Shown here: positions 45,615-55,357 of the stretch, piece after piece | How the letters are laid out: every line of letters starts with the position of its first letter | Numbering within the stretch: position 1 is the stretch's first letter | Assembly (NCBI GenBank): GCA_001604385.1 | Contig: LVBK01000016.1 | Coordinates: 62,001 to 126,000 of the forward strand | Length of the DNA stretch: 64,000 bases | Reading direction: 5' to 3' | Origin: Spirochaetales bacterium Spiro_09 | GTDB taxonomy: Bacteria > Spirochaetota > Spirochaetia > Treponematales > Treponemataceae | Notes under the pieces: model-generated | What the model saw: only the letters and a program-made list of their open reading frames with translations | What the model was told of the DNA's origin: nothing | The model's database searches: none | Translations under genes and position numbers: made by a program

Positions 45615-47888
45615 TTACTTGTCTTCCATAACAGTCAATTGGGAGAATACCGACTCCTGATCCTCGGCCATAACCCGCAAATCATTGGCCGTTTCCGACA
45701 AGTGCGAACCCTGTAGCGACAGTTCGTCAACCGAGACGGAAATTTCTTCCAGTCTGTTCATGGATGTACGGCTCATCTTGTCAATCGCTTCCATATTGTC
45801 CTTGACGGTTACCCCGAAGTCCGCGACACCTTCAAGTGCGCGGGTAATTCGATCTATGGATGACTGGGCTTCACCAAGGGCTGAATTGATTGACGAGAAG
45901 GATTGCTGGGCCGAGCGGGCCTGTTCAAGATTCTTGGCCACTCCAGCCGTTCCATTGTGAGCCAGATCAAGTATTCCGGTCATGGAACGGGTAATATCTG
46001 CGACAATCTCATTGATGTTTTCCGCAGTATGGCGAGAATTTTCCGCAAGAGTACGCACTTCTCCGGCGACAACCGCGAAGGATTTTCCCGCGGTTCCCGC
46101 ACGCGCAGCCTGGATGGAGGCGTTGATTGCAAGCACATTGGTATTTTCAGCAAGGCTTTCGATAATGCCCGAGAATTCACGAACACGTGCAATCTTTTCG
46201 TTGAAGGAAGCAAGTTCCGCTGCGATCCGGTCAATGGAGTCCTTCAAGCCGATTGTCTCGTCATAGGTGTCGCTGATTGCCTTGTCGCCCTGTCTGGATT
46301 CCGAATTCAGGCGTTCAACGAGCGTCACATATCCCGAAAGGGCATTCTGTACGTCGTTTATCATGCGATTCAAATTGGCAAGTTGCGCGTCATTATCGTC
46401 TATACGGTTCTTTTGCTCACCCATGTCGCCTTTAATGCCGGTAATCGCCGTACCGATTTGCTTGTTTGCCCGTGAAGATTCTTCAGCAGCTGCAGCCAGA
46501 TTCTGGCTCAATGACGCCAGCTGATTTATGTTTTCAATTATATTTATAATAATCTCACGGAAAATCGTCGGTTCAGCATTAAACGTCGTAACGATCAGAC
46601 CGGATTCAACGGCCCTGTTCAATTCCGATATGATATTCTTGTCGAGAATGGAGGTTGCAAAGCCGTCATACCGCTCCTTTACCAGTTTCTGTATTGCGGG
46701 ATTGTACGCTTTTGCGTTTCCGAAATTTTCTGCACCACTATACAGATCAATTACTTCAACCGAAACATTGAATTCCTCAAGTTTTTTTGCCGCACCATTG
46801 ATTCCCTCAACCAGGGAGGCAAAAAAACCGGTCACCTGCGGCATCAATACCGCAAAACGGTATTTTTTCCCTGTTCTGTTCGGTTCGGGAATGGCAAGCT
46901 GGGACAATTCTTCCTGTTTCATAATACGCTTGTTCGAACTGTCATCCCAATAGGTTGTATAATTGGACTTGTCAATAAAAATGGGATCCATAAAAAGTTT
47001 CTTGGAAAGAGGTCGCCAGGATGCCGCACAGGCATTATAGAGGTGTATAACGGCGTTAAACGTCTGCGCATAGGCATTTTGCTCGATAAGGGCGGCAACT
47101 CTGCCTTCCTTTAAAAGCTTGATGTTTTGCGCGATTGCGTCGTAGGCGACCATTTTAATCCGGGTATTCTTCAACGCGCTGATTTCATCCGCAATGCCGC
47201 GTGGGGTGTGTCCGTCGGTTACATATACCAGATCGCAATCCGGATGTTCGCCGTTCAGCTTACGTAAAGCCGCTGCAGCACCCTCGGGACTACCACCCGT
47301 TGCAACGACACCATGGCACTTAATATTCGGGTAACTCTCGGTTATGTAGTCCAGGCAGCCCTTCATGCGCAACACGTGATTCGTCTGGGTAAAATCGGGA
47401 ATAAAACACACAACGGTGCCTTTCCCGTCCAAAATCCTGGCAATATTCTGTCCGGCAACCCGGCCTTCCGCGTAACTGTTTGCGCCGACAAAACAAAGCC
47501 GTTTTGGCGGAATATTCGTTAGGGTATTGAAATCGTTTACACCGGAAAGTAGATGTTCGGCAACTGCAGCTGCCTCGGCAGTCTCGGCTGGAGGAGGCAG
47601 TCGGGAAATAACAAAGCGCATGTCACCTGCGGCAAAGGATGATATTGCCCGCACCAGGCGGCGTGAAAGAATTTCCAGAACATCACGCAGGTCGGCGGTC
47701 AACCCGCCAGCCCATTTCATTTCCCTCATCATAAATACCAGCGACATAATTGATGCACCAGTCAACAATAAAAACAAAATGGCTAGAACCGGCTGCGTCA
47801 TGGACAGAGTGATTCCGGCTAGTCCCAATACCGCACCCGCGATCGGGAACAGGAGGCTCAAACGTGTAATGGCGCGTGTTGTACTCAT
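45615..47888 (-). CDS. Chemoreceptor (MCP) with two N-terminal TMs and a type I periplasmic-binding-like module
   Basis: MCP signalling core [39 protein letters not shown]1-like segments [17 protein letters not shown]... and [31 protein letters not shown]. Confidence 0.93.
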
Positions 47889-47977: not shown

Positions 47978-48001
47978 GGGCTCCGACCACCGTCGGAGCC
48001 C
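47978..48001 (-). terminator. Rho-independent terminator (minus strand) of the TrxR-like gene cluster
   Basis: gggctccgac-cacc-gtcggagccc, A-run at 47969-47977 (U-run on -). Confidence 0.9.
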
Positions 48002-48020: not shown

Positions 48021-49256
48021 TCAGGAATTCCTGTCAATAAAGTCCTTGATTTTTACCTCGATACCGGTCAAGTCAGTGAGATTGTCCACCGTTACCCCGT
48101 CTCTCATCAAGATAAGCGACGGAGTTTTGGTATATGAAAGCCGGCACGCGATGCGGTCCGATTTATAGATGTCAATACGGCGCAATTGTATGCTGTCCTT
48201 GTGCTGGCGTTGTACCTCTTCGATCCGGCCAAGATATTCCCGGTCAACAGGTTCAACCGCATTGTAGACGAAGGCCATAACCAGTCCCTTGGCGTTCAGT
48301 ATTTCCTTGTTTACGTACTCGACTTCTTCTACGTATTTCTCCGCCATGAAGCCGGCAACGGCCCCGTCACCGACCGCGGTCGCGACCTGACGAAGCGTCT
48401 TGTCACGGCAGTCGCCAACCGCGTAAATACCGGGAACCGATGTTTCCATATCAGGGTTCGTTACGATATACCCGCGGTTAGTCATTTCAAGGAGCCCGTT
48501 GAAAACCTTTGTATTCGGCACATACCCGATAAACAGAAAACAGGTGTCAACAGCTACCGGAATTTTCTCTCCGGTCTTCATGTTTTTCAGAACAACCTGC
48601 TTCAGCATCTCATCCCCTTCGAAGGAATCAACCACGGTATTCCACATAAAAGTCATCCTAGGATTCGCCCTGGCCTTTTCCTGGGCGACCTTGTTTGCAT
48701 CCATAATGCCTTCATCGTGAATTACCGAGACGATCACTTCTTTGGCAAACTTTGTCAGGAACATGCCTTCTTCAATTGCGGCATCCCCCGACCCGATCAC
48801 CATAATGCGTTTCCCTTCATTTCGGGCAGCATCACAGGTCGCGCAAAAAGAAATACCCTTGTCATTGAGAAATTTCTCTTCGTTTGCCGCTCCGGTAAGC
48901 CGGGGTTTGTTGCCGGTCGCAATGACAACCGCCTTGGCAACATAATTTGTACGGAATGTGGAGACCACCTTCAGGTCACAGTCCACGGTCACTTCCTTGA
49001 CATCGGTAAGCTTGACGTCTACCCCGAACCGGCGGAACTGTTTGTCGAACATTTTCATCAGCTCAATACCGTCCACTGGCTCCGGGAAGCCGGGATAGTT
49101 TTCGATCTCGCTCGTATAGGTAGCCATCCCTCCTATCAACGACTTTTCAATCAGAAGCGTTTTCAGCCGGGCACGGCCGGCGTACAGGGCAGCAGTCATA
49201 CCGCCCGGTCCGCCTCCAATAACAACAACGTCATAGGATTCGACTTTCTTTTCCAT
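48021..49256 (-). CDS. Thioredoxin reductase-like FAD/NAD(P) oxidoreductase with C-terminal degenerate thioredoxin-fold domain
   Basis: VVIGGGPGGMTAALYAGRA, SFCATCDAA redox motif, VIGSGDAAIEEG, GIYAVGDCRDK; C-terminal ~90 aa thioredoxin-like without CxxC. Confidence 0.88.
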   Translation of the reverse strand: MEKKVESYDVVVIGGGPGGMTAALYAGRARLKTLLIEKSLIGGMATYTSEIENYPGFPEPVDGIELMKMFDKQFRRFGVDVKLTDVKEVTVDCDLKVVSTFRTNYVAKAVVIATGNKPRLTGAANEEKFLNDKGISFCATCDAARNEGKRIMVIGSGDAAIEEGMFLTKFAKEVIVSVIHDEGIMDANKVAQEKARANPRMTFMWNTVVDSFEGDEMLKQVVLKNMKTGEKIPVAVDTCFLFIGYVPNTKVFNGLLEMTNRGYIVTNPDMETSVPGIYAVGDCRDKTLRQVATAVGDGAVAGFMAEKYVEEVEYVNKEILNAKGLVMAFVYNAVEPVDREYLGRIEEVQRQHKDSIQLRRIDIYKSDRIACRLSYTKTPSLILMRDGVTVDNLTDLTGIEVKIKDFIDRNS

Positions 49257-50758: not shown

Positions 50759-50800
50759 TACACACTCCTTATAGATAAAAAAATACTGATATAACCTATC

Positions 50801-50816
50801 AGCATTTTTCGTGCCA
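50801..50816 (-). promoter_or_regulatory. Sigma-54 (-24/-12) promoter upstream of the tusA-like gene
   Basis: Minus strand TGGCACGAAAAATGCT: GG and GC at the canonical spacing; start codon at 50758 with aaggag Shine-Dalgarno. Confidence 0.75.
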
Positions 50817-50970
50817 ACTAAAAGCATCAGTGAAAGAAGAGGAAATAAGTCGGAGAACCGGACAGGAAGAGGGAGCTTTTTAGTTTAATGTCTTTATATT
50901 ACAAAGTTTTAAAACTAAATAAGGCAATGAAGAGTTTTGTCAGCTAAAAACAGGAAAACACCGGGGAGGG

Positions 50971-51012
50971 CCGCAAATGGGCGCCCGAAAACGGACAAAG
51001 AGCCGAAAACGG
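50971..51012. repeat. Short repeated motifs CCGCAAATGG / CCGAAAACGG / CCGAAAACGG, possible activator sites
   Basis: Copies at 50971, 50985 and 51003, between the sigma-54 promoter and the NtrC-type regulator gene. Confidence 0.4.
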
Positions 51013-51046
51013 GCACAATCAAGTCTAAAAAAGTGATACTACCCGG

Positions 51047-52432
51047 TCAGCGAAAATCTTCAGAATTGAGGGAAAACCGTTCAAGGCGGCGGTCAAGCGC
51101 CTGCCGGGTAAGGCCAAGCAGGGACGCAGCCCGGGACCGCACCCCCCGAGAACACATCAGGGCTTTCACGATCGTGTTCTTTTCGATGTGTTCCAGGTTT
51201 AATGATTCTGCACTGCATTCAACGGGGGGACTCATAGAAAAGGAAGAAACGAAACCAGGAATATAATCGATGATGGACGTACCATCGGAACGAGAATGTA
51301 TGGCCGCCCGTTCCATCAGGTTCCGCAATTCACGGATATTTCCCGGAAAGTCATACGCAGAAAGGGCAGAAAGCACATGATCGGAAAGAACCGCGGGACT
51401 TCGCTGTTTCCCTTCCAGAAAGCGCGACAGAAAATATGCGGCGAGCAAGGGAATATCGGATCGACGTTCGCGCAAGGGCACAACCGTAATGGGTAAAACG
51501 GCAAGCCTCCAATACAAATCGGCACGAAAGGAACCTTCCGTAACACAAGTTGCAAGGTCCCGATTCGTCGCGCAAATGATGCGTACATCTACAGGGTGTT
51601 CACGGTCTGCACCCACCGGGCGCACCTGGCCATTTTCAATGGTCCTCAGTAGTTTTGCCTGAAGCTCGAACGGAATCTCTGCAACCTCATCAAGAAAAAG
51701 AGTGCCCCCGTCAGCGGAACGGAAGAAGCCGTCCCTGCTTCCATGCGCATCGGTAAACGCGCCTTTTTCATGACCGAAAAACTCGCTTTCGAACATATCT
51801 CGCGGTATGGCTGCACAGTTAACTGCCATAAAGCGATGTGATGAACGCGAACCGCTCAGATGTATTTGACGGGCGACAAGCTCCTTGCCCGTTCCACTTT
51901 CCCCGGTAATAAGTACCGGGGAACTGGAATTGGTACCCGCAAGCATAATGTCGGAACGCAATCGTTCCATTTGAGAGGAAGTACCAATAAGGGTGTTATC
52001 TCCGGCCAGTTCGCGGTTCAATTGGGAACACAGATGAGCATACCGACGGGCACCAGACTGAGCCTCTACAAATCGCCTGGTACGACCGATAGCAGCCTGC
52101 AGTTCGAACACCGAAAAGGGCTTTTTCAGATAATCAAAGGCACCAAGACGGAACGCTTCGATAACACTGTCCATGTCGCCATGCCCGCTCATGACAATAA
52201 TCTCTATACCGGACAATGCATTCTTCAGTCTTTTTATCAGCTCAAGGCCGGAATATTCAGGAAGCTTTATATCCACAAGCGCAACATCAATATGGCGGCA
52301 CGAAGCGGTCTCCAACGCGACCGAGGGCCGGTCTGCGCTGTACACGGTGTATCCCCCCGATTCAAGATACTCCGAAAGCTCATCAATAATACGCTTTTCA
52401 TCGTCAATGACCAATACAGACAAGTCATTCAT
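51047..52432 (-). CDS. NtrC-family sigma-54-dependent response regulator
   Basis: Receiver VLVIDDEKRI; GESGTGKELVARQIH, GAFTDA (GAFTGA variant), EVAEIPFELQAKLLR; C-terminal Fis-like HTH. Confidence 0.95.
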   Translation of the reverse strand: MNDLSVLVIDDEKRIIDELSEYLESGGYTVYSADRPSVALETASCRHIDVALVDIKLPEYSGLELIKRLKNALSGIEIIVMSGHGDMDSVIEAFRLGAFDYLKKPFSVFELQAAIGRTRRFVEAQSGARRYAHLCSQLNRELAGDNTLIGTSSQMERLRSDIMLAGTNSSSPVLITGESGTGKELVARQIHLSGSRSSHRFMAVNCAAIPRDMFESEFFGHEKGAFTDAHGSRDGFFRSADGGTLFLDEVAEIPFELQAKLLRTIENGQVRPVGADREHPVDVRIICATNRDLATCVTEGSFRADLYWRLAVLPITVVPLRERRSDIPLLAAYFLSRFLEGKQRSPAVLSDHVLSALSAYDFPGNIRELRNLMERAAIHSRSDGTSIIDYIPGFVSSFSMSPPVECSAESLNLEHIEKNTIVKALMCSRGVRSRAASLLGLTRQALDRRLERFSLNSEDFR

Positions 52433-54683
52433 CGGAACACGACTCCTTTTCCCCCAGATATAGCGGAACGCGTACGGATACGCAGGTTCCCATTGAGTCC
52501 GGAATATTTTCCAGATAAATATCTCCCGCCATTTTCCGGATTATGCCAAAAGATATGGATAAACCAAGCCCGGTCCCCTTTCCTTCTTTCTTTGTGGTAA
52601 AAAACGGATCCAGGGCACGACGACGGCACTCTTCAGCGATGCCTGTTCCGTTATCCCGAACTTCAAGAACGACAAACGGGCCGTCAAGTCGAGTCTCTAC
52701 GCAAATGCGGCCGGGAACACTGTCCGCAAGGTTCTTCTCTGAGTCATCAATTAGCCGTTCCTCGATTGCATCCCGTGCGTTGGAAAGGAGATTGATCACA
52801 ACCTGTTCAAATTGATACGGATTTCCGCACAGCGCAATCCCTCCAGCCGCTTGCTCAAAGACTATCTCGATACCATGGCTGGAAAGCTGAACCCCGAGCA
52901 TGGCAAGAGCGTTCTCCACGCTCCGGTTCACGTCGAAGGCGACACTATATTCATCGGGCGTAGACCGGGCAAACAAACGCACATGATCGATTACGCGCCG
53001 GACACGATCAATGTCTGAATCGATTGACTTGATTTTCTTTTGAAGATAATCGCTATCAAGCGCGCCGCTGTGATATCTGTTCTGAATGTTTTCTACTGAA
53101 AAAGAGATGGCGTTAAGTGGTTGGGTAATTTCATGAGCCATTCCGGTTGCGAGTTCTCCGATGGAAGCAAGACGGGACTGCTGCTCGGCAATGCGCTCTC
53201 CCTCTTTCCGTTTTTCAACTTCCCGGTTAACCCGGTGTTCAAGATTGTCATTCAATTCCAGAAGCCGCTGTTCAGTTTCCTTGCGGTGTGTAATATCAGT
53301 CGAAATGCGTATCACATGGGTTACAAGACCCGCTTCGCTTCGTACCGGTACAGCGGCATGCTCCCACCACCGTCCGCTGCTTTCCCTTTCAACCGTGATA
53401 ACCGATCCCGAGAAGAAAGACGACGATAAAACCGCTTCTTCAGATGAAAAGAAAGAATCCTGAACGAGGGAGGGATCCGAGCCGACCAGAGAGGGAAACC
53501 GATCCATTGTCCGCCGGTTGGCCCACAACACACGCGGGCGGATATCCACGTAAAACACAAAACCGGGCAAACCTTCAACTATGGCCTGTAAAATGCCTTG
53601 TCGGTCGCGAAGCGCACTGATTATTTCGTTAACGGTATAAATGATATCTCTGAACTCGGGTGACAGGGTTTCAACACGGCCCCTGAATTCAAGATCGCCC
53701 CGAATAATCCGTGCGGATATCATGCGCGTTTCGTCGACAACCATGCGGAGCGGGCGCAGTAAAATAGTCATGGAAAGAGACAGGGTAAGAGAGAGAACCA
53801 AAAACAGAAGAACACCAAGCAAGCCAAGCCGCGAGCGGAGCTGGAGGAACGAATCTGCCAGGGGAATAATACGCAACTCGGCCTTGATAACGCCCGAAAC
53901 CCTGCCGGTGTAATCCCTGAAAGGGTACAAGGCAACCGGTAAGCCTGAATTACATTCCGTGGACCATACGGGTTTTCCACTTACCAGACGCGCAAGGTCA
54001 TCGCCGGCAGGAAGACAACCGCCCGCGCACCAGTTACCCGCCTGGTAGTATGGTGTATTGTCCTCATCCAACAGAAAAAGACAAAAATCAGCGGAGAACT
54101 TGTCTCTCATGTGGTTCATGAACACATTGTCCATGGCGATTCCTGCCTCAAACGCGCCAATGTATGTTCCGTTATGAAACACCGGCGAGATTGCCCGGAT
54201 TGCCGGACCGCTTTTACCGGTTTCAATGCCGGATACCGGTTCTCGCTCTTCATGAACCGCTCGAATCATGGGCCTGATTTCTGCAAGTTGGTCATGACCC
54301 TCCTCTTCTTTATGCACCCGTAAAAAAGAGGTCCCGTCTGGCCGATGAAAGTGAAAACGGGACACACGCAACTTGTTCGCCTCGTACACCGACATAACAT
54401 AGTCCAATAATCCCTTTCGGTCACCGGAAGCAAAGAGTTCCGACACCTGCTTGTCATGGCTGAGCGCACTCGTCAAAGAGCGTACCACATCCAGCTCCGC
54501 TTCTATTGACCAGCTTAAGGTTCGGGACACCAGGTTGAACATGTCCTTTTCCGACTCGCGCACCGCTTCCGAACCGCCTCTGATCAGCAGTATTACAAAA
54601 CCGCCATACAGAAGGGCCTGCATTACCAATACAAGAAGTATCAGTATGGAAGAAGTCCCGAAGCGAAAAAGGATGCGTTTCAC
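52425..54683 (-). CDS. Sensor histidine kinase with extracytoplasmic Cache-like domain and PAS
   Basis: GTG start at 54683; two TMs; GELATGMAHEITQPLNAISFSVENI H-box, GKGTGLGLSISFGI. Confidence 0.92.
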   Translation of the reverse strand: MKRILFRFGTSSILILLVLVMQALLYGGFVILLIRGGSEAVRESEKDMFNLVSRTLSWSIEAELDVVRSLTSALSHDKQVSELFASGDRKGLLDYVMSVYEANKLRVSRFHFHRPDGTSFLRVHKEEEGHDQLAEIRPMIRAVHEEREPVSGIETGKSGPAIRAISPVFHNGTYIGAFEAGIAMDNVFMNHMRDKFSADFCLFLLDEDNTPYYQAGNWCAGGCLPAGDDLARLVSGKPVWSTECNSGLPVALYPFRDYTGRVSGVIKAELRIIPLADSFLQLRSRLGLLGVLLFLVLSLTLSLSMTILLRPLRMVVDETRMISARIIRGDLEFRGRVETLSPEFRDIIYTVNEIISALRDRQGILQAIVEGLPGFVFYVDIRPRVLWANRRTMDRFPSLVGSDPSLVQDSFFSSEEAVLSSSFFSGSVITVERESSGRWWEHAAVPVRSEAGLVTHVIRISTDITHRKETEQRLLELNDNLEHRVNREVEKRKEGERIAEQQSRLASIGELATGMAHEITQPLNAISFSVENIQNRYHSGALDSDYLQKKIKSIDSDIDRVRRVIDHVRLFARSTPDEYSVAFDVNRSVENALAMLGVQLSSHGIEIVFEQAAGGIALCGNPYQFEQVVINLLSNARDAIEERLIDDSEKNLADSVPGRICVETRLDGPFVVLEVRDNGTGIAEECRRRALDPFFTTKKEGKGTGLGLSISFGIIRKMAGDIYLENIPDSMGTCVSVRVPLYLGEKESCSDE

Positions 54684-55357
54684 GCCTCCGGCCTCCGCGT
54701 ACCATGCGTGGACCGGTACACATAATAGGGAACCCCGATACATCCCGTAATGGCGGCAGGCAGCAGAAGAACCTGCACGCCAAAATGAACAAATAACAGG
54801 GCAGACACGAGGGCTCCGATAAAATATCCGCCGACCAGGATGGCCATCAGTTTCATTTTCTGAATATCGACCGCCAATTTGATCAAGGCATGTCCGAGCT
54901 GTATTCCAAGGTCTGTAATCAGTCCGGTTACATGGGTTGTCCGGACAACCGAGCGGGAAAAGGTTGTTGCCATGGCGTTTTGCAAGCCGCATACTGCTGA
55001 AAGCACCAGCTGGCTAATGATCGGAGCTGATTTGAACACGGCAAGCGCATACAGAATACCGACGGATTCCATAAAAAGAACGACCCCATACCTGCGTCCC
55101 AATCGCACATGATAGTCGCGGATTATCATGCCGCTGACAACCGATCCGGCAAAAAAACATACCAGCATGCCGCCGAGCCGGAGCGCATCCGGAACACGCC
55201 AAGCCGATAGCGCGATGGCAAAGTTCGTGGTCGTACCGGTCAAATGGGACACCGGTTCATGAACGACCGACAGCAGCATGCAGGCATTGATGGCCCCGGC
55301 AGCAAGGGCAAGGGTGAAACCTCCAATTCCAATCCAGCCCGGTAATTTTTTCTCCAT
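54680..55357 (-). CDS. YoaK/DUF1275-family membrane protein
   Basis: AAGAINACMLLSVVHEPVSHLTGTTTNFAIALS, CGLQNAMATTFSRSVVRTTHVTGLITDLGIQLG. Confidence 0.88.
   Translation of the reverse strand: MEKKLPGWIGIGGFTLALAAGAINACMLLSVVHEPVSHLTGTTTNFAIALSAWRVPDALRLGGMLVCFFAGSVVSGMIIRDYHVRLGRRYGVVLFMESVGILYALAVFKSAPIISQLVLSAVCGLQNAMATTFSRSVVRTTHVTGLITDLGIQLGHALIKLAVDIQKMKLMAILVGGYFIGALVSALLFVHFGVQVLLLPAAITGCIGVPYYVYRSTHGTRRPEA

Follow-up and report, generated by a model that had tools for sequence, protein, structure and literature searches.

The window (the whole 64,000-nt stretch analysed, from Spirochaetales bacterium Spiro_09) carries on its minus strand a gene for a TusA-like sulfur carrier, two genes for the halves of a YedE-type transporter and a gene for a thioredoxin reductase (TrxR)-like flavoprotein (Table 1). 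Pfam matches to TusA (85 bits), to Sulf_transp (C-half, then N-half) and to Pyr_redox_2 were obtained for the products, and the order given in the original prediction, tusA, yedE half, yedE half, TrxR-like, running to a terminator, was confirmed, the latter being a hairpin with a T-run. YedE is thus divided between two genes with the C-terminal half first, the pair being collinear with the YedE/FdhT model, and the thiosulfate-relay cysteines C22, C91 and C293 of the TsuA structure 6LEO are all retained across the halves. The TrxR-like protein has CATC at its active site, and its C-terminal extension is predicted to adopt a thioredoxin fold (AlphaFold2, ten relatives, pLDDT 87; Foldseek TM ~0.8 to thioredoxins). 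This extension (window 48021-48329, minus strand) has no CxxC in 10 of the 10 relatives compared, and it keeps a conserved proline where thioredoxins have their cis-Pro. Directly downstream of the operon terminator lies a gene for a chemoreceptor (MCP) with a Peripla_BP_4 domain (45615-47888, minus strand).

Upstream of tusA and in the same orientation, the NtrC-type activator gene noted in the original prediction was found again, preceded by a gene for a sensor histidine kinase (HK). The response regulator (RR) contains receiver, Sigma54_activat and Fis-type helix-turn-helix domains, with the receiver aspartate in the motif VDIKLPE. GAFTDA replaces GAFTGA in 6/6 intact RRs aligned; this variant, also found in the sigma-54 activator DVU2106, is among those expected to remain active (PMC4641369). 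The HK gene probably starts at a GTG that overlaps the stop codon (GTGA) of a gene for a DUF1275 membrane protein (54680-55357, minus strand), and its 3' end overlaps the start of the RR gene. Because of these overlaps, the DUF1275, HK and RR genes look translationally coupled, and the DUF1275 gene may be part of the regulator operon. A dCache domain is common to the kinases of the window, L015, L121, L122 and L159 and was lost in those of L012 and L017. The PAS domain contains the cysteine motifs ACY and QECWEH in six of seven aligned kinases, while the kinase of the window has neither cysteine; these cysteines might be taken as a lead for sulfane-sulfur sensing, and as nothing beyond a lead.

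Table 1. Coordinates of the regulatory elements and genes of the tusA locus in the window.
Feature	Position	Strand	Remark
Intrinsic terminator of operon, 10-bp stem, T9 tail	47978..48001	-	
Thioredoxin-reductase-like flavoprotein (CATC) with C-terminal thioredoxin fold without CxxC	48021..49256	-	
YedE N-terminal half, 241 aa; C74 = TsuA C22, C155 = TsuA C91	49260..49985	-	
YedE C-terminal half, 174 aa; C135 = TsuA C293	49996..50520	-	
tusA-like sulfur carrier, 75 aa; CPxP at C13, further Cys C8 and C41	50531..50758	-	
Predicted sigma-54 -24/-12 promoter TGGCACGAAAAATGCT	50801..50816	-	Predicted TSS near 50790
Weak third candidate UAS, CGCCCATTTGCGGCCC, 8/12	50968..50983	-	14-bp register kept in relatives
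Candidate UAS site 2, TGTCCGTTTTCGGGCG, 11/12	50982..50997	-	Comparison with relatives
Candidate UAS site 1, TGCCCGTTTTCGGCTC, 9/12	51000..51015	-	Comparison with relatives
NtrC-type RR: receiver, AAA+ with GAFTDA, Fis-type HTH	51047..52432	-	
Sensor HK: dCache_3, PAS_4, HisKA, HATPase_c	52425..54683	-	GTG start at 54683 (probable)

The near-consensus sigma-54 site proposed by the original prediction for the minus strand stands up to inspection: GG-N10-GC is present at -24/-12, and the only mismatch to the consensus TGGCACGNNNNTTGCW is at the first T of TTGC, where the site has an A. Its position also agrees, since the 3' end of the site lies 43 nt ahead of the tusA ATG, predicted to be about 45 nt away, and this start codon is preceded by a good ribosome-binding site, AAGGAG. 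Transcription from sigma-54 promoters starts approximately 12 nt past the -12 element, and this start disappears when rpoN is removed. The host genome (G000; 2.72 Mb, 88% complete) encodes a single rpoN, for a sigma-54 with its DNA-binding domain, so that the absence of rpoN, which would have spoken against the proposal, does not apply; strong Sigma54_activat proteins number seven, the neighboring RR among them. None of 500 dinucleotide shuffles of the 288-bp intergenic region matched the promoter score, and no sigma-70-like match was found on the minus strand in the region upstream of tusA. Taken alone, the -24/-12 site is weak evidence and proves little, because sites with at most one mismatch occur 28 times in the genome vs. 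23 times in the reversed control. Counts of -24/-12 matches in the window or genome are uninformative at one or two mismatches and were dropped as a measure. It is conservation among relatives that settles the reality of this predicted promoter.

Enhancer sites of sigma-54 promoters usually lie 80-200 bp away, and candidate upstream activator sequences (UAS), absent from the original prediction, are present here as two or three palindromes of the form TGYCCG-N4-CGGRCA, approximately 180 bp upstream of the promoter. In relatives, arrays of this palindrome have a 14-bp step, mostly followed by a further 19-bp step, and their distance upstream of the -24 box is 144-182 bp across the genomes compared; the copies in the window (11, 9 and 8 of 12) are weaker than in most relatives. 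No clean pattern of helical phasing between enhancer and promoter was seen by eye over this 144-182 bp range. A genome search for a wider regulon with the single palindrome was swamped by chance palindromes, and a two-copy pattern (TGYCCGN4YGG-N(1-14)-TCCRN4CGG) was used instead. It matched once in the 2.7-Mb host genome and once each in G070, G101 and G102, always at the tusA locus, while G091 gave two matches, one of them at the tusA locus. Because the two-copy pattern is nearly confined to this locus, the regulon looks local.

Relatives of the YedE C-half were gathered from 101 relatives, a genome-collection scan and 395 genomes of the phylum. The order tusA-yedE-yedE-trxR together with an orthologous RR was found in nine genomes, eight from spirochaetes and one a Syntrophus metagenome-assembled genome (MAG): the window, L004 (G091), L005 (G070), L012 (Syntrophus MAG, G101), L015 (G102), L016 (G105), L017 (G106), L003 (G084) and L163 (G197). 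All nine have a -24/-12 element, located -50 to -128 from tusA, with a score of 0.89 or more, as well as one to three palindromes of at least 10/12, counted in a fixed 300 nt (the L004 and L017 sites overlap the RR stop codon). Neither element is present in any of 13 tusA-first clusters without an orthologous RR, which comprise four of the same order (L013, L014, L018, which is the same contig as G029, and L162) and nine with fused YedE; that the RR is missing from L162 and from the fused clusters was judged on the retrieved flank alone. In these nine spirochaete clusters (L164-L167, L170-L173, L175), the fused YedE is ~400-430 aa long and no orthologous activator lies within the fetched flank. 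The association is significant by Fisher's test in all 22 clusters (p = 2e-6) and in the 13 split same-order clusters (p = 0.0014), with relatedness ignored in both values. As every activator-bearing relative keeps the GG/GC elements and the same-order relatives without an activator lack them, the conservation on which the original prediction had been staked is found where the activator is found.

One of the nine loci, that of G197, came to light once the rule had been fixed and served as an out-of-sample test. It fits the rule, having an HK-RR pair upstream (36% and 47% identity), a 12/12 palindrome and TGGCATGGTACGTGCT at -50, a -24/-12 element that was missed by the strict pattern and found by the weighted score. 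In a tree that left out G197 and the split G105 copy, the module's RRs group as a single monophyletic clade (100/100), separate from paralogues of the same genomes. A search for an orthologous RR in the site-less genomes, with G248 outside the search, yielded nothing closer than paralogues with full-length identities of 42% or less. Because rpoN is encoded in all 13 genomes examined, even those without sites, it is the activator, not the sigma factor, that the sites follow. The HK-RR pair of G084 lies 7 kb off on the other strand, with the tusA promoter (-128) and UAS kept; its RR gene (L159, 6942-8345, minus strand) is interrupted by a single in-frame TAA within the AAA+ domain, a sign of circuit decay or else a mistake in the assembly. 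Some flanking sequence is also shared between the intergenic regions of near relatives, and part of the conservation is therefore due to common descent.

Other sigma-54 sites were observed in the host genome. A perfect promoter (G000:C47:12275-12290, L093) lies 54 nt upstream of a gene for a 286-aa sigma-70-family factor (regions 1.2-4), which suggests a possible cascade from RpoN to a second sigma factor and recalls RpoN-RpoS of Borrelia. Exact sites are also present at G000:C49:95773, C73:13957, C73:14957 and C4:160015 (L094, L096, L097 and L092), upstream of genes identified from sequence only as an Hsp20-like gene, genes for NifX-like small proteins, which have a divergent pair of exact sites 1 kb apart, and a gene for a small secreted protein ahead of an HK.

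The retention of this arrangement in nine relatives with the RR and its absence from thirteen without it argue for a real regulatory circuit, one that appears undescribed for these genes. In the favored interpretation, to which a probability of about 0.87 is assigned, tusA-yedE-yedE-trxR is controlled from a sigma-54 promoter by the adjacent HK-RR pair acting through the UAS and serves in sulfur-anion import; the control by an adjacent two-component system that the original prediction had put forward is supported by rpoN, GG/GC conservation, the palindromes and the monophyletic activator clade. The kinase would sense a signal and phosphorylate the adjacent RR, which would bind the upstream palindromes, with looping of the DNA, so that its GAFTDA-containing AAA+ domain could open the sigma-54 holoenzyme complex at TGGCACGAAAAATGCT (50816-50801) and the operon be transcribed. 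Two other accounts of its expression were considered. It is very improbable that the -24/-12 match arose by chance and that a sigma-70-type promoter drives the operon: the genome has hardly more one-mismatch sites than the reversed control, but the element stands at the right place in every activator-bearing relative and in none of the thirteen others, and the region upstream of tusA has no sigma-70-like match on the minus strand. Just as little likelihood attaches to activation of the sigma-54 promoter by another enhancer-binding protein, with the adjacent pair controlling something else. Seven strong Sigma54_activat proteins would provide candidates for such a role; against this, the enhancer pair is found in the host genome only at the tusA locus, and it co-occurs only with the clade of the adjacent RR; this holds even where HK-RR has moved 7 kb away, in G084.

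As for the cargo, selD scored over the cut-off only in the Syntrophus MAG among eight genomes checked and is missing from the seven spirochaete genomes (G000, G029, G070, G084, G091, G102 and G106), including G070, a single contig that is 100% complete. Because of this absence, the operon most likely handles sulfur rather than selenium, and the retained relay cysteines make thiosulfate or a related sulfane-sulfur anion the best guess at its substrate. The two-piece YedE pore would import this anion and pass sulfur to TusA, and the TrxR-like enzyme would supply reducing power, perhaps by regenerating TusA or reducing a TusA persulfide. The reading of the operon as a selenium module, with YedE/FdhT and a YedF-like TusA (NF033796, TIGR03527), draws on membership in the same superfamily and on the YedE halves, whose highest scores are to the YedE/FdhT model, with which they are collinear. 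This reading is unlikely, since all YedE/FdhT-type model scores fall far below the cut-off, selD is absent in 7/8 genomes and all three relay cysteines are retained.

A broader and rather doubtful extension of sulfur-anion import under HK-RR control is that HK-RR, enhancers, promoter and TusA/YedE/TrxR genes together make up a self-contained cassette for sulfur uptake that moves horizontally and is shared by Spirochaetota and the Syntrophus MAG, with the kinase sensing sulfane sulfur via its PAS cysteine pair (ACY...QECWEH). This pair is still present in the L012 and L017 kinases despite their loss of the periplasmic dCache domain. If the cassette model were true, the HK of the window, from which the PAS pair has been lost, would sense only through dCache. 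The HK-RR circuit itself would extend sigma-54 control in spirochaetes to a regulon for sulfur uptake, and its substrate and signal are directly testable in cultured relatives carrying the same circuit.

Like TsuA/TsuB (YeeE/YeeD; Spirochaeta thermophila and E. coli; 6LEO, 8J4C; PMC11073785), the operon encodes a Sulf_transp protein with equivalents of C22/C91/C293 and a small TusA-family partner with CPxP; unlike TsuA/TsuB, the transporter is split in two genes, C-half first, and a TrxR-like fusion is added. The operon proteins scored below the TsuA and TsuB cut-offs of NCBIfam (TusA of the window, 61 bits vs. the TsuB cut-off of 147.5), and the TusA/YedE pair may work like TsuA/TsuB though not filed as such. 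For YeeE/YedE-family transport, the regulation of which was called unclear (PMC11073785), the HK-RR circuit would provide a dedicated sensor as well as an exact enhancer motif. YeeE and TusA genes also occur together in the anaerobe T. maritima, where yeeE, in one transcription unit with dsrE/tusA genes, is strongly induced by thiosulfate (42.6-fold) and a flavoprotein NAD(P)H sulfur reductase is induced alongside (PMC9431562), its reductase differing in family and location from the TrxR-like protein.

For the regulation, a partial literature search found no paper linking sigma-54 to TusA/YedE/YeeE, and Desulfovibrio and Clostridiales sigma-54 regulon papers leave these genes unmentioned in their main text. 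The original prediction had called such a regulon unusual, which stands for TusA/YedE in the literature searched and falls for sigma-54 two-component control of sulfur genes in general, as the closest precedent, TspS/TspR of Acidithiobacillus caldus, is a sigma-54-dependent pair that controls sox-II (Li et al., 2017, as reviewed in PMC6335251). The target there is periplasmic Sox oxidation in an acidophilic sulfur oxidizer, unlike the TusA/YedE/TrxR genes of spirochaetes and the Syntrophus MAG. The likeness rests on layout, with HK-RR directly upstream of sulfur genes and a sigma-54 promoter, and on the UAS, similar and not identical, rather than on protein sequence: the TspR UAS TGTCCCAAATGGGACA, of the form TGTCCC-N4-GGGACA, repeats the 6-4-6 palindrome, the innermost C/G alone being changed. 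Because TspS/TspR shares this layout and a near-identical palindrome, putting sulfur genes under sigma-54 control is a type of regulation already known.
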